A DNA stretch of 64,000 bases from Sphingomonas nostoxanthinifaciens (GTDB taxonomy: Bacteria > Pseudomonadota > Alphaproteobacteria > Sphingomonadales > Sphingomonadaceae): assembly GCF_019930585.1 (NCBI RefSeq), contig NZ_CP082839.1, positions 2,476,001-2,540,000 of the forward strand, in the 5' to 3' direction. Within the stretch, counting starts at the first letter, position 1; every line of letters begins with the position of its first letter. The notes below the pieces were generated by a model. The model was given only the letters and a program-made list of their open reading frames with translations, was not told the origin of the DNA and searched no databases. Of the stretch, positions 2,293-15,875 are shown one piece after another. Both the position numbers and the translations under genes were made by a program.

Positions 2293-3129
2293 GGTGCTGT
2301 CAGTCTAATGCGAACTCGTCTCCAGACGATGCATTTGGGTCTTCGCGGCTGGCATCCTAGCTCATAAGGATCTGCCACTCGGCCAGGGCGGCCGAGCGGC
2401 GAAGCTTATAGGTCTGGCGATCGACGAGGTGGCGTTCGAGATTGAAGTGGTTGCTGACGTTGGCGTGGACCGAGGCGAACTTCTGAAGCGTCTTCATCCG
2501 CCGGAACCGCATCATCGCTCGCTCTCGTCGTCGGAATGGCAGGTGACTGTTCTCCACTCGGTTGTTGGCCCAGCGGCCGACCTCCTGCTTGTCCTCGTTG
2601 CCAAGCTCGGTCATCGCGGCGCGATAGGAGCGCAGCCCGTCGGTTGTGATGGCCTCCGGCGAGCCATGACGCTTCAGCGCCTTCTTCATGAAGCGAAGCG
2701 CTGCGCCCTTGTCGCGCCCTTTGGTGACGTAGCTTTCGAGGATCTCGCCCTCGTGATCGACGGCTCGCCAGAGGTAGACCATCTCACCGTTGAGCTTCAC
2801 GTACATCTCGTCGAGGTGCCAGCGCCAATGGCGGAAGCCCCGCATGCGAGACACCCGCTGCCGACGGATATCGCCGGCAAACATCGGACCAAAGCGGTTC
2901 CACCAATGCCGCACCGTCTCATGGCAGATGTCGATCCCGCGCTCGAATAGCAGGTCCTCCACGTTCCGCAGCGACAGCGGGAACCGCACATACATCATCA
3001 CCACGAGGCGGATCACCTCGGGTGACGAGTTGAAGTAGCGGAATGGGCTCTGTGGCTTGCGAGGTCGAGGCATCCAGCCCGCCTTACCCAGTCCTCCTTA
3101 CCGAGCGGTGCATTTGGTCTGACAGCACC
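2293..3129 (-). mobile_element. IS6-family insertion sequence, 837 bp
   Basis: Bounded by inverted repeats: GGTGCTGTCAGTCTAATGC at 2293-2311 and, read on the other strand, GGTGCTGTCAGACCAAATGC at 3129-3110. It contains one transposase gene. The flanking 8-mers (CCTTCGAT on the left, CTATCGCC on the right) do not match, so there is no target duplication. This suggests that a deletion or IS-IS recombination occurred after insertion and removed the transglutaminase 3' end. Confidence 0.9.
2357..3073 (-). CDS. IS6-family transposase
   Basis: A 238-residue DDE transposase, full length for the family. It opens MPRPRKPQSPFRYFNSSPEV, followed by a helix-turn-helix region (RNVEDLLFERGI). The catalytic triad is visible as D in DEMYVK, D in TTDGLRSY and E in RVENSH. 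The start codon lies 56 bp inside the right inverted repeat. The gene looks intact, so the element may be active. Confidence 0.93.
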   Translation of the reverse strand: MPRPRKPQSPFRYFNSSPEVIRLVVMMYVRFPLSLRNVEDLLFERGIDICHETVRHWWNRFGPMFAGDIRRQRVSRMRGFRHWRWHLDEMYVKLNGEMVYLWRAVDHEGEILESYVTKGRDKGAALRFMKKALKRHGSPEAITTDGLRSYRAAMTELGNEDKQEVGRWANNRVENSHLPFRRRERAMMRFRRMKTLQKFASVHANVSNHFNLERHLVDRQTYKLRRSAALAEWQILMS

Positions 3130-5850: not shown

Positions 5851-6083
5851 AAGTTGGCTGTGGCCGACATCAGGGCGAATATGGAACGTTGGCGATAGAT
5901 GCCTTCGACGCTTCCAGAACGTCGTATTCAGGTAAATATCGCCGCCGCTGTATTAACCCTTTTCGACGGCGATAAGCCCGTGCTGTCGATGCGCGCGGTC
6001 ACGGGGCGCCCCGGCGCTGAAACGCCGATGCTCAATCGACCGTCCGGAGCATACTCGTCAACCCGCCCTGGAATGTGCCCCAA
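5851..6083 (+). pseudogene. L,D-transpeptidase (YkuD/LdtD-like) fragment
   Basis: The reading frame encodes DIRANMERWR, then TAG at 5896-5898 where family members have Trp, then MPSTLPERRIQVNIAAAVLT through GRPGAETPML. A one-base loss near 6031 moves the frame, after which STVRSILVNPPWNVP follows. Together these are the characteristic central region of LdtD/YcbB-type transpeptidases. The catalytic His/Cys region is absent. The gene is therefore dead: nonsense codon, frameshift and truncation, joined directly to a universal-stress-protein fragment. Confidence 0.75.
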
Positions 6084-6097
6084 TGCTCCGCCGGGGT

Positions 6098-6484
6098 CGC
6101 CACGGTCACGTTGGACCGGGCGCTGGTAGGCGGGAAGGAGACGCGGGAAGCGCGCCGCGCCGTGCTGGAAGCATTGCCGCTGCTGCAGGCCCCGCGCCAT
6201 GTCGTCGTCGTCGAATTCGCGCATGCCGATCGCATCGCCGAAGCACGCGAACATCTCGTGGATATCGCCCATTGCTCGGCCGCCATGGCGTAGTGGTTGA
6301 AACCGAAGCATCTGAGGCTCAGGGCTCAAACGTGCACAGTCTGGCCAAGAAAGTAAACGAGCAGGGTGCGGATCTAATTGTAGCCGGCACTTATAGCCAT
6401 AATCGGCTGCGGGAATGGGTATTGGATGGGGTCACGTGTGATCTTCTGTTGAGTACGCGGGGCCTAGCGCTGCTGTCTCATGAC
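6098..6484 (+). pseudogene. Universal stress protein (UspA-like) fragment
   Basis: One frame gives GGKETREARRAVLEALPLLQ and then APRHVVVVEFAHADRIAEAR. A frameshift near 6270-6284 leads to GRHGVVVETEASEAQGSN and then QGADLIVAGTYSHNRLREWV through to ALLSHD. This is the second half of a Usp domain, including the G-x-x-x-x-R-L-R-E-W-V region near the nucleotide-binding end. The N-terminal half is missing and replaced by L,D-transpeptidase sequence. Usp genes commonly sit beside FixLJ-type low-oxygen clusters, so this is probably the decayed edge of that island. Confidence 0.75.
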
Positions 6485-7188: not shown

Positions 7189-7812
7189 CTAGTGCTCCTC
7201 ATTCGGCATGCCGGCAGCAAACGCGATACGTAACGCCTCGGAAAGGCTCTGCGCGCGAAGCTTGCTCATCAGGTTGGCACGGTGGACTTCCACCGTTCGC
7301 GCACTGATGTCGAGGTCGTAGGCGATGGTCTTGTTCGGATGCCCGTTCGCCAAACCTTCAAGGACATCGCGCTCCCGCGCAGTGAGAGCGCCGATACAAA
7401 GCTGTGCTTCCGCGCGATCCTCAATTCGCCGACCAGTGTCGTTGAGCCGCTCCACGGCTCGCGCGATCGCCGCTACCAAGACGGCCTTCTCGAACGGCTT
7501 TTCGAGGAAGTCGACCGCGCCCGCCTTCATCGCGCGCACCGCCAGCGGAACATCACCATGTCCTGTCAGAACCACGACCGGCATAGCGATGCCGCGCGCG
7601 CGAAGCTGTTCTTGAACCTCAAGGCCGTCCATGTCCGGCATACGAATGTCGAGTAGCACGCACCCTGGCATTACCGATTGGGCGACTTTCAGAAACTCGA
7701 TTCCCGAAACATATGTCTTCACCTCATACCCCGAAACCCGCAGATTGAAGGACGTGGAGCGCCGGACCGATTCCTCGTCGTCTATGAGGTGGACAAGAGG
7801 CTTATCGCTCAA
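7189..7812 (-). CDS. fixJ: FixJ-type two-component response regulator
   Basis: A 207-residue protein. The receiver domain (1-125) has D11/D12, phospho-acceptor D55 in LLDIRMPDMDG and K in FLEKPF. The C-terminal LuxR/FixJ helix-turn-helix (about 140-200) begins LTARERDVLEGLANGHPNK. Its start overlaps the end of fixL by 11 bp, indicating translational coupling. In rhizobia phospho-FixJ activates fixK and other low-oxygen genes. No fixK gene is present in this window, so targets could be the adjacent metabolic genes directly or a regulator elsewhere. Confidence 0.92.
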   Translation of the reverse strand: MSDKPLVHLIDDEESVRRSTSFNLRVSGYEVKTYVSGIEFLKVAQSVMPGCVLLDIRMPDMDGLEVQEQLRARGIAMPVVVLTGHGDVPLAVRAMKAGAVDFLEKPFEKAVLVAAIARAVERLNDTGRRIEDRAEAQLCIGALTARERDVLEGLANGHPNKTIAYDLDISARTVEVHRANLMSKLRAQSLSEALRIAFAAGMPNEEH

Positions 7813-9409
7813 CGCTTGTCTCCTCGGCTGCCAGCATCAATGTAAAATGGAAGCGCGTGCCGCCGTCCTGGCAAGCGTCCGCTCCGATGCGCCCGCCATG
7901 CGCTTCGACGATTGTGCGGCAAATCGACAATCCCAAGCCCATACCCTCCTGTTTCGTACTCAGAAAGGCGCGAAACAGCTCCGCAGCCACCTCCGGTGCG
8001 AGGCCGGGGCCGGTGTCTTGCACCGAAACCTCTGCCCAGTTGGGCAACCGGAAGGCCGTCTCAATCGTAATCCGGCGCACCGGCTGGTCCATCATCGCCT
8101 CTACCGCATTCCGCACGAGATTGACGATCACTTGCTGGATCTGAACGCGGTCTACCAGAACCGGGCTGGCGCGCGGGTCGAGGGTCATGACCACCTCGAC
8201 GCCGTCGCACCGCGTGCCGACCAGGCCGAGCCTGCACGCTTCTTCCACCAGCTTCGGCAGATCCTCGATCGCCTTCTCTACTTCGCCGCGGGCAACGAAA
8301 GCCCGCAGGCGGCGCACGATCTGCCCTGCACGAATTGCCTCCGCAATGGCATCTGAAAGTGCGTCGCGCACAGTGGCGACATTGTCCTCGTTAGGCTCGG
8401 TAAGCAGCTCGCGGGCGCCCTCCGCGTAGGAGATCACAGCGGTTATTGGTTGATTGAGTTCATGAGCGAGGGTCGAAGCCATTGCCCCCATCGCGCTGAC
8501 CCTGGCAACATGGATGAGCTCGGCTTGGAGCGCGTTGAGCCGCGCTTGCGTCGCTTCCCGTTCCGTCAGATCCCGAATGAACCCGGTAAATAGCCGGCGT
8601 CCCCCACCGGTCGCTTCCCCGATGGCCAGCTCGTGCGGAAACGTCGAACCGTCCTTACGCTGACCGATAACCCGACGGGTCGTACCGATGATGCGGGCTT
8701 CTCCAGTTGCCAAGTATCGCGAGATATACCCCGAATGTCGCTCGCGATCGGGCGAGGGCATGAGAATGCCTATATCCTTGCCGAGCATCTCCGGCTCTGA
8801 ATAGCCAAACAGGCGCTCGGCAGCGGTACTGAACGACTGGACCGTTCCCTGATCATCAATGATGATCATCGCATCGGGAACGGTGCCGAGGATGGAGGCA
8901 AGTTGCGATTCCCTAGCCTCCAGCGCGCGCTCGGCTGCGCGCTGGTCGGTGATGTCGCGCAAGACTTTACCGTATCCGATCAGATCGCCCGCATCATCGG
9001 TTAGGGCAGTTATCGTGACATGAGCCAGAAACTCCGACCCATCCTTCTTGACCCTCCACGCTTCCTCTTCGATGCGACCAAGTGTGCGTGCGCGCAAAAG
9101 ATCGCTTTCGCACCTTCCAGATGCTATTTCGTCCTGTGGATAGAAGATCGAGCAATGCTGGCCGAGAACTTCTTCTTCAGACCAGCCCTTGATTCGCTCG
9201 GCACCGTCGTTCCAAACCGCGACATTGCCGGCGGCGTCGAGCATGTAGATAGCGTAGTTCGTCGCACTGTCGATGAGCAGCCCAAGCTCGACCGCGATCA
9301 CTTCGGCACGCGCCGCCAAACTGTCGATGCGCCCGCCGTGGCGGTAAATTTGTGCCCGCTTTGGCCTGATGGATACGTCCGGTCGCATAGGTGGAGTGTC
9401 ATCGGCCAT
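7802..9409 (-). CDS. fixL: FixL-type haem PAS oxygen-sensor histidine kinase
   Basis: A 535-residue soluble kinase without membrane segments. PAS1 spans about 45-155 and PAS2 about 165-285, followed by the dimerisation/phosphorylation helix with His316 in AHELNQPITAV and an ATPase domain with G-x-G in DTGPGL and GMGLGLS. PAS2 carries the FixL haem signature: RHSGYISRY supplies the proximal His (225) and Arg (231), and IIGTTRRV supplies Arg245. Their spacing equals that of His200/Arg206/Arg220 in Bradyrhizobium FixL. Oxygen bound to the haem is expected to switch the kinase off. It is the first gene of the fixL-fixJ-receiver unit. Confidence 0.93.
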   Translation of the reverse strand: MADDTPPMRPDVSIRPKRAQIYRHGGRIDSLAARAEVIAVELGLLIDSATNYAIYMLDAAGNVAVWNDGAERIKGWSEEEVLGQHCSIFYPQDEIASGRCESDLLRARTLGRIEEEAWRVKKDGSEFLAHVTITALTDDAGDLIGYGKVLRDITDQRAAERALEARESQLASILGTVPDAMIIIDDQGTVQSFSTAAERLFGYSEPEMLGKDIGILMPSPDRERHSGYISRYLATGEARIIGTTRRVIGQRKDGSTFPHELAIGEATGGGRRLFTGFIRDLTEREATQARLNALQAELIHVARVSAMGAMASTLAHELNQPITAVISYAEGARELLTEPNEDNVATVRDALSDAIAEAIRAGQIVRRLRAFVARGEVEKAIEDLPKLVEEACRLGLVGTRCDGVEVVMTLDPRASPVLVDRVQIQQVIVNLVRNAVEAMMDQPVRRITIETAFRLPNWAEVSVQDTGPGLAPEVAAELFRAFLSTKQEGMGLGLSICRTIVEAHGGRIGADACQDGGTRFHFTLMLAAEETSVER

Positions 9410-9766: not shown

Positions 9767-9903
9767 TGATTTCTGAACAACGCACCTTTCTTATCGACGC
9801 CGACGGCATCGTGCGCGGGCTGACCAACCGGGCAGACCGCATGCGGATGCCACATGTGCCTTGCAGTTCAGCGCGTGCTGCTAGCGTGGCGCGGAGCACC
9901 TGA
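9767..9903 (+). CDS. Possible 45-residue leader protein coupled to ackA
   Basis: ATG at 9767 reads MISEQRTFLIDADGIVRGLT and continues for 45 codons. Its TGA (9901-9903) shares its last base with the acetate kinase ATG (9903), the TGATG arrangement typical of translational coupling. GGG is the only weak ribosome site. No homologue is recognised. It could be a true small protein, the C-terminal relic of a lost gene, or a chance frame. Confidence 0.35.
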
Positions 9904-11093
9904 TGGGCGAGATTCTCTGCCTCAATGCCGGGTCGTCGAGCCTGAAGTTCGCGGTTTTCGCTTCTGTCCCGGTGGCTCGGCGGATTGTCGCAGGCCAGAT
10001 CGAGGATATCGGCCTCGAACCGCATCTGATCCTGCGCGACGCAGAAGGCGCGACAATCGCAGAACAACGCTGGCCCGAGGCCAACAAAGCCACGCATGAG
10101 ACCCTCCTTGTAACTCTGCTGGATCAAATCGAAGAACAGTTCGCCAGGGAGCTGGTCGCCGTGGGCCACCGAGTCGTGCATGGCGGCTCGGACTTTACCG
10201 CACCGGTGCGGATCGACTCCGATGTGCTTTCACGCCTTGATGCGCTTTGTCCACTAGCGCCGCTACACCAATCCCACAATCTATCTGCGGTCCGAACGAT
10301 CATGGCCGCGCGCCCCGGCTTGCCTCAGATCGCCTGCTTCGACACGGCCTTCCATCATGGGCAACCCGCAGTTGCCACGCGCCTCGCGTTGCCTCGCGTC
10401 CTCACGGCGGCAGGCATGCGGCGCTATGGTTTTCATGGTATCTCGTATGAGTATATTGCCCGTCGACTGGGCGAGTTAGATCCGCGCTTCGGCGGACGCG
10501 TCATCGTCGCGCATCTTGGTAATGGCGCGAGCCTTTGCGCTATGCAAAACGGACGAAGCGTCGATACCACAATGGGTTTTACCGCGCTGGACGGCCTTGT
10601 GATGGGCACCCGTTGCGGCGCGCTCGATCCCGGCGCCGTGCTTTTTCTCCTTCAAGAGAAAAACATGATCCCCGATGCTGTCGAACATCTGCTCTATAAC
10701 GAATCCGGTTTGCTCGGTGTCTCAGGCCTGTCCAGTGACATGCGCGTGTTGCTCGATAGCGATGCCCCGTTCGCACGCGAGGCGATTGAGCTGTTCGTTT
10801 GGCAAATTGCGCGCCAAGCTAGCGCACTCATCGCCTCGCTCGGCGGACTGGACGGGCTCGTGTTCACGGCCGGTATCGGGGAGAACGCGCCGGCAATCCG
10901 TTCGCTCGTCGGCCAGCGCCTTGGATGGCTGGGTCTGGAGATCGACGAGAAGGCAAATGATAGAGGGGATCCCGTTATCAGCGCACCTTCCAGCCGCGTT
11001 ACAGTTCGCGTCATCCCGACAGATGAGGAACGGATGATTGCGTTCCATACCGCCGAGCGGATTGGTTGCGCGCGGACCATGGCCAAGAATTGA
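9903..11093 (+). CDS. ackA: Acetate kinase
   Basis: A full-length 396-residue acetate kinase: acetyl phosphate + ADP gives acetate + ATP. Family motifs are in order: LCLNAGSSSLKF at the N-terminus, GHRVVHGG, the ACFDTAFHH segment, RRYGFHGISYEYI, AHLGNGASLCA, DTTMGFTALDGLVMGTRCG, and FTAGIGENA. It is divergent from fixL, and phosphoketolase lies in the same direction 2.3 kb further on. Together the two produce acetate and ATP from xylulose-5-P or fructose-6-P. No phosphotransacetylase gene is seen nearby. Confidence 0.95.
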   Translation: MGEILCLNAGSSSLKFAVFASVPVARRIVAGQIEDIGLEPHLILRDAEGATIAEQRWPEANKATHETLLVTLLDQIEEQFARELVAVGHRVVHGGSDFTAPVRIDSDVLSRLDALCPLAPLHQSHNLSAVRTIMAARPGLPQIACFDTAFHHGQPAVATRLALPRVLTAAGMRRYGFHGISYEYIARRLGELDPRFGGRVIVAHLGNGASLCAMQNGRSVDTTMGFTALDGLVMGTRCGALDPGAVLFLLQEKNMIPDAVEHLLYNESGLLGVSGLSSDMRVLLDSDAPFAREAIELFVWQIARQASALIASLGGLDGLVFTAGIGENAPAIRSLVGQRLGWLGLEIDEKANDRGDPVISAPSSRVTVRVIPTDEERMIAFHTAERIGCARTMAKN

Positions 11094-11185: not shown

Positions 11186-11199
11186 TTGCCCTAGATCAA
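11186..11199 (+). promoter_or_regulatory. Putative FixK/FNR-type binding site
   Basis: TTGCCCTAGATCAA has the spacing of the FixK/FNR palindrome TTGAT-N4-ATCAA, with one perfect half (ATCAA) and one half differing at two positions. Its centre is about 41-42 bases before a predicted start at roughly 11234, the class II activator position. It lies in a low-oxygen gene island. Confidence 0.55.
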
Positions 11200-11233
11200 A
11201 GGCGTTGGCGAAAGACTCGAGCAGGATTGCAAC

Positions 11234-11303
11234 AGGACGCGAGCATCCCCTCCCTGCTCGCGGGAACGGACCTTTCCCGCCCGGCACGTCCGGGCGGGTT
11301 TTT
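11234..11303 (+). ncRNA. Candidate low-oxygen small RNA with anti-Shine-Dalgarno loop
   Basis: No protein is encoded here. A perfect 8-bp stem (CGCGAGCA at 11238-11245 with TGCTCGCG at 11255-11262) presents the 9-base loop UCCCCUCCC, which contains CCUCC, the complement of the Shine-Dalgarno core. A second GC-rich hairpin with a T-run follows at 11276-11303. A FixK-like box lies at the right distance upstream. Small RNAs with CU-rich anti-SD loops are known in other alphaproteobacteria (for example the alpha-r14 and CcsR groups). This one is a prediction from structure and position only. Confidence 0.5.
11276..11303 (+). terminator. Rho-independent terminator
   Basis: CCCGCCCGG at 11276-11284 pairs with CCGGGCGGG at 11290-11298, with the loop CACGT, followed immediately by five T residues. 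It lies 183 bp after ackA and could end the ackA message or the candidate small RNA. Confidence 0.9.
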
Positions 11304-11950: not shown

Positions 11951-12637
11951 ATGCCACATCCGCCTGCTTTCTATAGCCCACGGCACGTCATTGTGCTCGC
12001 ACACCCGAGCCGTAACAGCTTCAACGGTCTGATTGCCGACGCATATTGCGACGCCGTGCGCTCTTGCGGTCAGGAAGCCATTGTGCGGGATCTTTACGGT
12101 ATCGGTTTCGACCCCGTGCTCAAGGAACACGAGCGACCCGGTCGACAAAGCTTCGTGCCCTCGAAAGACGTCGAAGCCGAGCATGACGCGATCAGGGGCA
12201 GTGACGTCTTCGTGATGGTATACCCGATTTGGTTCGGCATGCCGCCAGCTATGATGAAGGGCTATGTCGACCGCGTTCTCGGCGCGGGGGTTACGCCACA
12301 GGGCGTCCGAGATCGGACCGCCATGACGCTGATGAAAGGGCAACGGCTCGTCAACATCACATCGTCGGGAGCGAGCAAGAAATGGCTTAACGCGCAGGAC
12401 CAAATAGAGTCCTTGCGGAGCGTGCTCGGCCGCTATCTGCTACACGCCTTCCAGATAAGTGACTATCAGGATATTCATTTCGGAGAGACTGTGGAAGGAC
12501 TGGATCAGGAGTATGTTGACCAGAACTTACGGGTCGTCGACGACCGCGCGCGCAGGATTTGCGCGACCATCACCGCCGAGCGAGCAGCGCAAGCATCGCG
12601 AGGCAATGATCTTCCTGCCCATAGAGCGGGCAAATAA
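11951..12637 (+). CDS. NAD(P)H:quinone reductase-like flavodoxin-fold protein 1
   Basis: A 228-residue cytosolic flavoprotein of the NQO1/YwrO/KefF group. It has the N-terminal HVIVLAHPSRNSFN loop that binds FMN/FAD phosphate and the YPIWFGMPPAMMKGYVDRV motif of the isoalloxazine site. It begins 10 or so bases after a strong AGGAAGGAG site. The paralogue follows 32 bp downstream, so the pair is an operon. Two-electron reduction of quinones or a related acceptor is expected; in a low-oxygen island it could help reoxidise NAD(P)H. Confidence 0.85.
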   Translation: MPHPPAFYSPRHVIVLAHPSRNSFNGLIADAYCDAVRSCGQEAIVRDLYGIGFDPVLKEHERPGRQSFVPSKDVEAEHDAIRGSDVFVMVYPIWFGMPPAMMKGYVDRVLGAGVTPQGVRDRTAMTLMKGQRLVNITSSGASKKWLNAQDQIESLRSVLGRYLLHAFQISDYQDIHFGETVEGLDQEYVDQNLRVVDDRARRICATITAERAAQASRGNDLPAHRAGK

Positions 12638-12669
12638 CCGGCCGAGACGGCTCCGGTCAGGAGAAACTA

Positions 12670-13341
12670 ATGTCTCAGCAAGCCTTCGCCTCGCCCCGTC
12701 ACGTTGTCGTGCTCGCGCACCCGAACGCCGACAGCTTTAATGCCAGCGTGGTCCGTACCTATTGCGAGACTGCCTGCTCATGTGGGCAAGAGACGATCGT
12801 TCGCGATCTCTACGCGATGGATTTCAACCCGGTTCTAACGGACGACGAACGGCCTCAGAAGCAAGGCGTTCGGCTGTCGCCAGACGTCGAGGCCGAACTG
12901 GCAGTTATTCGCGGCGCGGACATCTATACTTTTGTGTATCCCATCTGGTTCGCCATGCCCCCCGCAATGATGATCGGCTACATTGACCGTGTGATTGGAG
13001 CGGGCGTCACAGCGCGTGCGATCCAAGATCGTGCAGGGGAAAGCGTGCTGAGTGGACAGCATATGCTTAACATCACGAGCTCGGCCACGCGCGACGTCTG
13101 GCTCGATGAGCAAGGTCAGGTCCAATCGCTTCGAACCTTGGTTGGCGACTATCTTCGCAACGCCCTCGCCGCGCGTTCGTGCGAACATCTCCATCTCGGC
13201 GGAGTCGTCGAAGGAAATTCAAAGCGCTTCGTCGATCAGGCTCTTTATGAAGTGTTCGAACGCGCGAGGAAGGTTTGTGCCATGCTCGCGGCGGAGCGGC
13301 ACGCGGGATCGAACAGGCAATTCTCAGCGGATCGCAGCTGA
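12670..13341 (+). CDS. NAD(P)H:quinone reductase-like flavodoxin-fold protein 2
   Basis: A 223-residue tandem paralogue of the preceding gene, roughly half identical by eye: [17 protein letters not shown] at the N-terminus, then [20 protein letters not shown] and LNITSSA. AGGAGA lies 6 bases before the ATG. The C-terminal extension differs from its neighbour. The duplication followed by divergence suggests different acceptors or that they form a heterodimer. Phosphoketolase starts 84 bp after its stop. Confidence 0.85.
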
Positions 13342-13424
13342 CAGCGGCGAACCACTTCCGGTTGCAGCGTTGCCATATAGAACACGCAGACTTGGGCTGC
13401 CTAAAACAGGTTGATGGAACACTT

Positions 13425-15875
13425 ATGACCGAGGTCGCAAATCCAGGTTTTACCCACTCCGACGCCGTAGGCCCGCTCGATCGAGATGAACTACGCTGGA
13501 CGGACGCGTGGTGGCGGGCCGCCAATTACCTGAACGTTGGACAAATCTATCTCTCGGCCAATCCGCTGCTGCGTGAACCGCTGACGGTCGACCATATCAA
13601 GCCGAGGTTGCTTGGCCATTGGGGCACCTCACCGGGTCTCAATCTTGTTTATGTCCACCTCAACCGGCTGATCCGCAAATATGCGCTTGATGCGATCTAT
13701 ATGGCTGGGCCGGGCCATGGCGGCCCCGCCCTCATCGCCAACGTCTGGCTGGAAGGAAGCTATACCGACTTCTACCCGACAATCACGCGGGACGAACCTG
13801 GAATGCTTCGCCTGTTCCGCCAATTTTCGACACCGGGCGGAGTGCCGAGCCACGTCAGCGTCCCGACACCTGGATCGATCCATGAGGGCGGCGAACTCGG
13901 ATATGTGCTCCTCCACGCCTTTGGGGCGGTCATGGACAATCCCGACCTGTTAGTGGCGGCGGTGGTTGGAGACGGCGAATCTGAGACTGGCCCCTTGGCC
14001 GGAAGCTGGAAGGGCGTCGATTTCCTCAATCCGATCCGCGACGGTGCGGTGCTGCCGATCCTCCATCTCAACGGCCATAAGATATCCGGCCCGACCGTTT
14101 GGGCGCGTCATAGTGACGCCGATCTTGCCAAGTTTTTCGAAGGCCAGGGTTATGCGCCGGTTTTTGTTGAGGGCGAAGATCCGGTCCTCGTTCATCAACA
14201 GTTTGCCGGGGCATTGGAGACGGCAGTTCTGCAGATCCGAGATATCCAGAGCCACGCTCGCGCGGACGGCTTGAAGGACCGTCCGGTCTGGCCGCTGATC
14301 GTGCTGAGGACGCCGAAAGGGTGGACGGGTCCCAAAGTCGTTGATGGCGTGAAAATCGAAGGCACGTTTCGCGCGCATCAGGTTCCGGTCTCCGAAGTGC
14401 GGTCAAATCCTGAACATCTTCGTATCCTGGAAGACTGGATGCGAAGTTATCGTCCCGACGAGTTGTTCGATGCTCGGGGGCGGCTCCAGCCTGAGATCGC
14501 TGCGCTGGCGCCGGAGGGCGACCGGCGCATGGGCTCCAATCCGCAGGCCAACGGCGGCCTTTTGACCAAAGCTCTCAAGCTTCCGACTTATAGCGACTAT
14601 CAAATCCGGTTCGTCCGACGCGCCGCGGAGCGGCTCGGATCCACCGCCGTTCTTGGCCAGTATCTGCGCGATATCTATCGCGATAATCCCCACAATTTTC
14701 GTCTTTTTTGCCCAGACGAAACCAATTCGAACCGGCTGGGCGCGGTCTTCGACGTTACCGATCGCTGCCTTGTGAGCGAGATCGAAACCGGTGACGACCA
14801 CATATCCCATGATGGCCGCGTGATGGAGGTATTGAGCGAGCATTGCTGCCATGGTTGGCTTGAAGGCTACACCCTGACCGGCCGGCACGGCTTGTTTGCG
14901 ACCTACGAAGCTTTTGCGATGATCATCGATTCCATGGCGATGCAGCATGCCAAGTGGATTGAACATGCCCGCCGTGTGTCTTGGCGGGCTGATGTTCCCT
15001 CACTCAACTATTTGCTCACGTCAACCTGCTGGCGCAACGACCATAATGGCTTCAGTCATCAGGGGCCTGGTTTCATTGATACAATCATTCACCGCAAACC
15101 AGTGGTTGCGCGTGTATATCTTCCGCCGGACGCCAATTGCCTGCTATCGGTCGCCGATCACTGCTTCCAGAGCCGCAACTATTTGAACCTTATAGTCATC
15201 GACAAGCAGCCGCAGCTGCAATGGCTGACGATGGAGGAGGCCGACGCGCATTGCGCGCGAGGAGTGAGCATCTGGGACATGTACAGCAACCAGGCCGACA
15301 CGCCAGACATCGTCCTTGCTTGCGCCGGAGACGTTCCAACACAGGAGACCATCGCAGCGGCCTGGATGTTGAGGCGCTTCGCCCCCGATCTCAAGGTGCG
15401 GGTTGTCAATGTCGTCGATCTCATGCGGCTCTGCCCGGCCGATCGACATCCGCATGGGATGAGCGATGCAGACTTCATTGAAATTTTCACAGGCAATGTC
15501 CCCGTGGTGTTGGCTTTTCACGGCTATCCCGGTGTCATCCACGATCTCCTGCATGGGCGATCCGCGCATGACCGTTTCCACGTTCGCGGCTATTTGGAAG
15601 AAGGCACCACCACCACGCCTTTTGACATGGTAGTTCTCAATGAGATGAGCCGGCTTCACCTTTGCCTCGATGTCCTCCGCTACGTGCCAGGTGCGCTTGC
15701 GGCCAATGGTGCGCTGGTGCGCCACTGCAATGACCTGCTCGAACGGCACGAAACCTATATCCGAGAGCATTTCGACGACCTTCCCGAAATCAGGGACTGG
15801 ATCTGGTCCGACCGAGACGACGAGGGCGACAACTGTATCGCATATCCGCAGTCCGGTTTACGAACCGATTTCTGA
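13425..15875 (+). CDS. xfp: Phosphoketolase (xylulose-5-P/fructose-6-P)
   Basis: An 816-residue thiamine-diphosphate enzyme, the normal length of the family. The ATG at 13425 ([10 protein letters not shown]) gives a typical start; upstream frame overlaps the quinone reductase. Family hallmarks include [28 protein letters not shown], the ThDP-binding [16 protein letters not shown] and [11 protein letters not shown], then [11 protein letters not shown] and [13 protein letters not shown]. It splits sugar phosphates to acetyl phosphate plus an aldose phosphate, and acetate kinase encoded nearby would convert the former to ATP. It is the last gene of the FixLJ-linked block. Confidence 0.95.

Follow-up and report, generated by a model that had tools for sequence, protein, structure and literature searches.

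A candidate FNR-controlled small RNA gene with a CCUCCC loop among the low-oxygen genes of sphingomonads

The acetate/propionate kinase gene (ackA) of Sphingomonas nostoxanthinifaciens is followed by a stretch of DNA in which a FixK-like box, a hairpin with a C-rich loop and a terminator had been predicted to form a small RNA gene under FNR/FixK control. The questions raised by this locus are whether these elements belong together as a gene in its own right, and what the RNA might do.

The locus downstream of ackA

The DNA analyzed, here called the window, is a stretch of 64,000 nucleotides (G000:C1:2476001-2540000) in the single-contig, 4.3-Mb genome of S. nostoxanthinifaciens. ackA (9903-11093, plus strand; TIGR00016, 359.4 bits against a cut-off of 293.4) is the upstream same-strand neighbour of the element and lies outside the RNA gene. 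Among the best 80 of 564 relatives of its product the closest are those of sphingomonads. Downstream, on the plus strand (11951-15875), are two genes for flavodoxin-fold NAD(P)H oxidoreductases, beginning at 11951 and 12670, followed by a phosphoketolase gene; the same kinds of genes (NAD(P)H oxidoreductase, phosphoketolase) come after the RNA in an island of Sphingomonas panacis described below. The stretch from ackA to the oxidoreductases contains no evident protein gene, in agreement with the original prediction: the longest open frame spanning the box, a mechanical one, has 92 codons and begins within ackA.

The RNA elements all lie on the plus strand. The first is an FNR/FixK box, TTGCCCTAGATCAA(AG), that is TTGCCCTAGATCAAAG (11186-11201; the 14-nt TTGCCCTAGATCAA occupies 11186-11199), a predicted class II activator site. 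Hairpin 1 (11238-11262) consists of a perfect 8-bp stem, CGCGAGCA/TGCTCGCG (11238-11245 / 11255-11262), enclosing the anti-Shine-Dalgarno-like loop TCCCCTCCC, which is UCCCCUCCC in the description of the RNA gene. A linker of 13 nt (11263-11275), with an ACGGA conserved in the three-copy alignment given below, leads to hairpin 2 and a U-run, an intrinsic terminator (11276-11303) with the 9-bp stem CCCGCCCGG/CCGGGCGGG (11276-11284 / 11290-11298) and a subsequent TTTTT. Box, 8-bp stem and terminator were found where they had been predicted (11186-11199, 11238-11262 and 11276-11298), and the count of 38 bases between box and first stem was correct. The box centre had been placed 41–42 bases ahead of the stem, which needs amending: the distance from 11192.5 to 11238 is 45.5 nt, and 41.5 nt from the centre leads to a predicted transcription start at about 11234 (AGGA, 11234-11237), after which comes the conserved GACGCG. 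In the expected -10 region (11222-11233) the best match to TATAAT is 3/6 and begins just 6 nt before the predicted start.

Several other features of the window were recorded. Segments 11218-11225 and 11253-11260 permit a perfect 8-nt alternative pairing, which would rival hairpin 1 solely in a read-through transcript of ackA. On the minus strand a FixJ-like regulator gene (7189-7812; best NCBIfam match FixJ, 253.2 bits, below the cut-off of 255) and a FixL-like kinase gene (7802-9409; best NCBIfam match FixL, 530.3 bits, below the cut-off of 850) form a FixLJ-like pair (7189-9409) that may contribute to low-oxygen signalling. A universal stress protein gene at 6083-6481 appears to be frame-broken, S. 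panacis Usp2 matching two frames (6093-6302 and 6275-6481). An IS240-type transposase gene (2357-3073) is located close to the low-oxygen genes, in line with a mobile island.

Two further copies of the element

Relatives were searched with covariance models and with blastn. Model R1, built from the window RNA alone with the box excluded, matched 16 places in 15 of 397 family genomes at E <= 0.01. Inspection of the 15 places outside the window left only one, in genome G057 (12th in rank, 26.8 bits, E 0.006), with both a box and a CCUCC hairpin, and the other 14 were dropped. This copy has the box TTGACCACGATCAAAG at a nearly equal distance from the hairpin ACGCGGGC-TATCTCCTCCCC-GCCCGCG, followed by a second hairpin. 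As it was chosen by eye, on account of the box and the CCUCC loop, its box is by itself no independent evidence.

With the G057 sequence as blastn query, a single one of 72,556 plasmid records matched, the conjugative plasmid of S. panacis DCY99 (NZ_CP014169.1). Here the box TTGATCCCGGTCAAAG stands at 2001 and the hairpin ACGCGGGC-AACATCCTCCCC-GCTCGCGT at 2050, followed by ACGGAACT and a 13-bp terminator. The blastn match spanned the hairpins alone and the box upstream was not selected for; this unselected box is the strongest single point in favour of the putative RNA gene. Model R2, built from the window and G057 copies only, recovered the S. panacis copy from 84 sources (860 kb) with 57.8 bits and E 4e-12, and besides G057 nothing else at E <= 1. 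When 1-kb stretches of G057 and S. panacis were compared by blastn, the RNA was the sole significant match (E 6e-22), the flanks giving none, and the box appeared in register as a weak 20-nt piece (E 0.26). The window stretch matched that of S. panacis in the hairpins, with an E-value of 0.019 only, and matched that of G057 significantly in neither RNA nor flanks. As a query, the window copy found no match in the 72,556 plasmid records and nothing useful in 298 family genomes, hairpin scanning of the 25–26-nt matches in three genomes other than its own included.

Wider searches added no convincing member. R2 matched six of the 397 family genomes, of which S. nostoxanthinifaciens and G057 were convincing, the other four matches being dropped on inspection. 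Model R3 matched 13 places in 12 of 296 genomes of the order, a listing without G057, which was presumably not drawn into the set; only the window copy was convincing, and the 12 remaining places were inspected and dropped, two having an FNR-like box without such a hairpin. R2 gave two further weak matches on 19 sources (E 0.37 and 0.83), and in seven further phosphoketolase regions (of 242 matching plasmid records) together with two S. panacis plasmid stretches the known copy alone was convincing. The pattern TTGNNCNNGATCAA-N34-60-CTCC occurs in 184/397 genomes, its reversed control being nearly always 0, and none of 30 loci taken from the matches listed passes a scan for CCTCC hairpins. Since that scan also misses the G057 copy, members may hide among the pattern loci; and since the filters of Infernal are stricter in many-genome searches, weak members may be missed and the counts are lower bounds.

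The search of relatives, by covariance model as proposed with the original prediction and by blastn, brought two further copies with the loop kept and an element that is rare: it was found in 2/397 family genomes, 1/7 genomes of the own genus and, with the G057 query, 1/72,556 plasmid records. Poor conservation among relatives keeping ackA at this place had been named as counting against the prediction, and in part it does. Conservation linked to ackA is indeed to be rejected, as 0/80 ackA loci (the best 80 of 564 relatives) held the element by hairpin scan or by R2, and G254, of the same genus, keeps ackA and has no RNA copy by R2; the other two copies adjoin other low-oxygen genes. In 13 of the 16 ackA loci that were read a FabI-like frame directly follows ackA, and fabI is annotated there in S. 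panacis. The distribution fits an element travelling with islands and plasmids.

Alignment of the three copies showed conservation of TTTG, TCAAAG, GACGCG, ACGGA and CCUCCC, the core of the loop. Box and hairpin are separated by a spacer that varies in sequence, with a length constant to within 2 nt. CCUCCC is invariant (3/3) and the flanks of the loop vary; counted with a 7-bp stem the loops are AUCCCCUCCCU, UAUCUCCUCCCC and AACAUCCUCCCC, with one motif hairpin per copy. Pair 5 of the hairpin 1 stem is A-U, G-C and G-U in the three copies. The remaining six pairs are invariant, and covariation (one compensated pair, no excess over shuffles) is therefore too thin to serve as proof of structure. 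A second hairpin is present in all copies, that of G057 being an imperfect terminator with a weak U-run. Because box, spacing, loop, linker and second hairpin are kept in three copies beside different genes, an FNR-controlled small RNA gene is well supported, and on this comparison we consider it highly probable that the conserved, FNR-boxed gene is real.

The FNR box, the gene setting and alternative explanations

The alphaproteobacterial FnrN/FixK consensus, TTGANCNNGATCAANG in the form reported in PMC4999443, is matched at 11/12 positions by the window box, at 12/12 by that of G057 and at 11/12 by that of S. panacis. A motif scan, the other computational check proposed at the outset, found no site of this quality in the 64 kb other than the window box (0.2 expected). 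The G057 box is likewise the sole consensus-grade one in its 20 kb, and the S. panacis plasmid has one other in its first 40 kb, TTGACCGGGGTCAAGG (L173 13728-13743; 11/12), between the divergent cydA and cydD genes, which is a natural positive control. Under looser definitions the box stands out less: its 10-base core is unremarkable (21 sites of at least 8/10 in the window, 13.3 expected), and TTGATCTAGATCAA with up to three mismatches has four matches in the window (1.3 expected), of which the box at 11186 is the best. The pattern TTGNNCNNGATCAANG occurs four times in the whole genome; three of these sites are within open frames of 404–616 codons and that of the RNA gene is in none longer than 92.

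From box centre to hairpin 1 the distance is 45.5 nt in the window and 44.5 and 43.5 nt in the other copies, compatible with a predicted start 2–4 nt ahead of the stem. Class II Fnr boxes at -41.5 have been reported for ccoN, uspA and other genes of Sphingopyxis granuli TFA (PMC7713065). Each of the three copies has a weak -10 element (3/6, 3/6 and 4/6), which may be expectable for an activator-dependent promoter, yet is also a ground for doubt. A homolog of FNR is encoded in the S. nostoxanthinifaciens chromosome 0.9 Mb from the window (G000:C1:1594035-1594715; cysteines CADCAVRDRALC). It shares 61% identity with the FNR-type protein of G057, which is 80% identical to that of the S. panacis island, and Cx2Cx7C is present in all; the name FNR is based on this motif and on FnrL being the best NCBIfam match of the G057 protein, under the cut-off (194 vs 300 bits).

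From the elements and their conservation, which were computed, we infer transcription, activation by FNR and anti-Shine-Dalgarno pairing as follows. When oxygen falls, an FNR-type activator, the Cx2Cx7C homolog encoded elsewhere on the chromosome, would bind the box at about -41.5 in the class II manner. Transcription would start just ahead of hairpin 1, at about 11234, and yield an RNA of roughly 70 nt ending at the intrinsic terminator. Its CCUCCC loop would then pair with Shine-Dalgarno sites of the GGGAGG type and block the translation of selected mRNAs in trans. We hold this explanation as a whole, an FNR-switched small RNA gene with anti-Shine-Dalgarno action, to be likely. As for the original prediction of an FNR/FixK-controlled small RNA, the three-copy comparison argues for an independent gene with a class-II-like box spacing and a CCUCCC loop; its production, induction at low oxygen and repression of mRNAs at GGAGG belong to the part that we infer.

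All three copies lie amid low-oxygen genes, with different immediate neighbours. In the window the box starts 93 nt past the last base of ackA. The G057 copy has a universal stress protein gene (usp) upstream, 123 nt before the box, and ompW downstream. In S. panacis atpG precedes the box (stop at 1999, box at 2001) and a kinase gene on the opposite strand follows the RNA. The surrounding S. panacis stretch also has cydABDC-type genes, an FNR-type regulator, phosphoketolase, ackA, fabI, a heavy-metal ATPase and usp. The window phosphoketolase, heavy-metal ATPase and acetyl-CoA hydrolase are 80–86% identical to their S. panacis counterparts, OmpW of G057 is 87% identical to that of S. panacis, and a related NAD(P)H oxidoreductase gene is found near all three RNAs. 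The F-type ATP synthase operon of the S. panacis plasmid (L173 1142-2122, L172 44721-48232) has its last gene ending at the small RNA box.

This setting bears on a different origin of the RNA, in which the hairpins are the end of the upstream mRNA (that of ackA in the window), the small RNA is a processing product and the box is incidental. A same-strand gene does precede the element in each case, with the box 93, 123 and 2 nt after ackA, usp and atpG, respectively; a hairpin with a CCCTCC loop and a terminator in genome G141 also come soon after an apparent gene end; and the pairing of 11218-11225 with 11253-11260 is possible only in a read-through transcript. The three upstream genes are unrelated, however, and the box and its spacing to the hairpin are nevertheless kept, which makes a 3'-UTR element an unlikely explanation and leaves an independent small RNA gene as the preferred one.

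Such a gene, genuinely under FNR control, might still act otherwise, as an RNA sponge, by binding a protein or through its ACGGA linker, in which case the C-rich loop would be no anti-Shine-Dalgarno seed. ACGGA is conserved to the same degree as the loop core, and the targets discussed below are candidates; against this, CCUCCC is invariant while the loop flanks and one stem pair vary, and CCUCCUCCC loops in alpha-rhizobia reportedly target translation start regions (PMC10746234). Another mode of action is accordingly rated improbable here, and pairing of the loop with Shine-Dalgarno sites is preferred.

It is very improbable that the box drives a downstream protein gene with the hairpins as attenuator or leader: ompW is about 390 nt downstream in G057, and in the window some 650 nt separate the element from the NAD(P)H oxidoreductase gene that follows, but a terminator lies in between, and the next gene of S. 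panacis is on the other strand, so that the box cannot serve it there.

The architecture was also compared with random and natural DNA, using a scan for a hairpin with a stem of at least 7 bp and CCTCC in its loop plus a terminator stem of at least 7 bp. Markov-1 sequence of window composition (9.6 Mb) gave 0 matches of hairpin plus terminator. Fetched natural DNA (1.62 Mb in 210 records, 10 overlapping copies having been excluded beforehand) gave three, namely the window, S. panacis and L102, the last of which had entered the set via model R1; the G057 copy (imperfect terminator stem, weak U-run) escapes this strict scan. The predicted fold of the window RNA is not unusually stable (z -1.63, 15/200 shuffles equally good), and that of G057 has z -3.74. 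A chance arrangement of common elements can be dismissed as exceedingly improbable: box core and fold are each ordinary taken singly, but the simulated sequence held no match and the third copy was recovered at E 4e-12 by a model untrained on it. L102 (G141:C57, minus strand, 1567-1508) has the hairpin loop ATCCCTCCA and a 14-bp terminator soon after an apparent gene end, without an FNR box, and might be a further anti-Shine-Dalgarno RNA, one of 3'-UTR type.

Candidate targets and comparison with known small RNAs

With its CCUCCC the loop is similar to the 16S rRNA end and would mask strong Shine-Dalgarno sites. GGGAGGG-N3-9-ATG occurs 35 times in the S. nostoxanthinifaciens genome versus 5 times for the reversed control, and pairable start sites therefore exist; 16 of the 30 sites read (of 35) stand before frames of at least 100 codons. 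These 16 include sites before the genes for a TonB-dependent receptor (L205), with a 10-nt match to the loop, a CoA-transferase III (L210), with one of 9 nt, and, with 8 nt each, the complex I subunit NuoF (L204) and a TolC-like protein (L216). Further 8-nt matches are at L211, L198, L195 and L201, and the longest, 11 nt, is before a doubtful 55-codon frame (L212). From the several 8-nt matches NuoF was chosen for its fit to low-oxygen physiology. The energies of cofolding were -8.7 for NuoF and -7.8 for the TonB receptor, overlapping with those of 13 control starts (median -5.3, best -10.0); cofolding cannot form loop contacts and separates candidates from controls poorly. We would guess at nuoF and the TonB receptor as candidate targets, and repression of complex I and of receptors when oxygen is scarce would, on the model of FnrS, be sensible. 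None of the 32 annotated genes of the S. panacis island pairs with the loop beyond 5–6 nt, which are ordinary Shine-Dalgarno matches.

A more speculative proposal, to which we attach little probability, is that of a mobile low-oxygen island bringing its own FNR-switched anti-Shine-Dalgarno RNA as a global translation brake. In any recipient sphingomonad this RNA would repress chromosomal genes of aerobic life with very strong GGGAGGG starts (nuoF of complex I, TonB receptors), and the genes of the island, with weaker matches of 5–6 nt, would escape.

No Rfam family reached its gathering score in the window, and all three copies fall below every Rfam threshold. FnrS, the FNR-activated small RNA of E. 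coli, reportedly represses numerous mRNAs that the cell can spare when oxygen is absent (PMC8139620). The present RNA would resemble it as a small trans-acting RNA under FNR control, both properties being predicted here, and would differ in that its presumed seed is an anti-Shine-Dalgarno loop; Rfam FnrS was not among the matches listed, with E limits of 5 for the window copy and 1 for those of G057 and S. panacis. The alpha-r14 RNA NfeR1, which is reported to obstruct the start region of ntrB (PMC10746234), and the cuckoo RNAs are alike in carrying a CU-rich anti-Shine-Dalgarno motif in a hairpin loop on variable stems, as described in PMC10746234 and PMC3927594. They are described as having three CCUCCUCCC hairpins, whereas here there is one motif hairpin, with CCUCCC, plus an FNR box. 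RF02344 (ar14) scored 21.1 bits on the S. panacis copy (cut-off 58.8) and was unlisted for the window and G057. Anti-hemB (RF02837) of Burkholderia similarly has two hairpins, the first loop with CUCCUCCC and the second a terminator. Of the Rfam families it scores highest on the window copy (28.3 bits, cut-off 49.5), and it is unlisted for G057 and S. panacis; at E <= 10 the control for this match was positive in 13/14 genomes and says little.

Alphaproteobacterial small RNAs tied to FNR-type control have been described before. RSs0019 and RSs2461 of Rhodobacter sphaeroides have FnrL ChIP sites and are functionally uncharacterized as reported in PMC4263372; with PcrZ (PMC8139620) they are comparable to the present RNA by description. 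With FnrL-bound small RNAs reported in Rhodobacter, FNR control of a small RNA in the Alphaproteobacteria is not in itself new. SuhB of S. granuli TFA, a small RNA from a sphingomonad as here, is reported to lower mRNA translation via the 5' UTR with Hfq, and differs in its reported growth-rate control (PMC6563040). Rfam suhB (RF00519), the same family as TFA SuhB by name only, gave the window copy a score of 13 bits against a cut-off of 41. Among the best-ranked open-access papers there was no report of FNR control combined with anti-Shine-Dalgarno action, nor of an FNR-controlled small RNA in sphingomonads.

By these analogies the putative RNA is a new small RNA family of known kinds, FnrS-like in its predicted control and similar to the anti-Shine-Dalgarno small RNAs in its presumed action. 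One copy is on a conjugative plasmid. If the proposed mechanism is true, the RNA would give the low-oxygen response of a group of mostly aerobic bacteria a post-transcriptional component.
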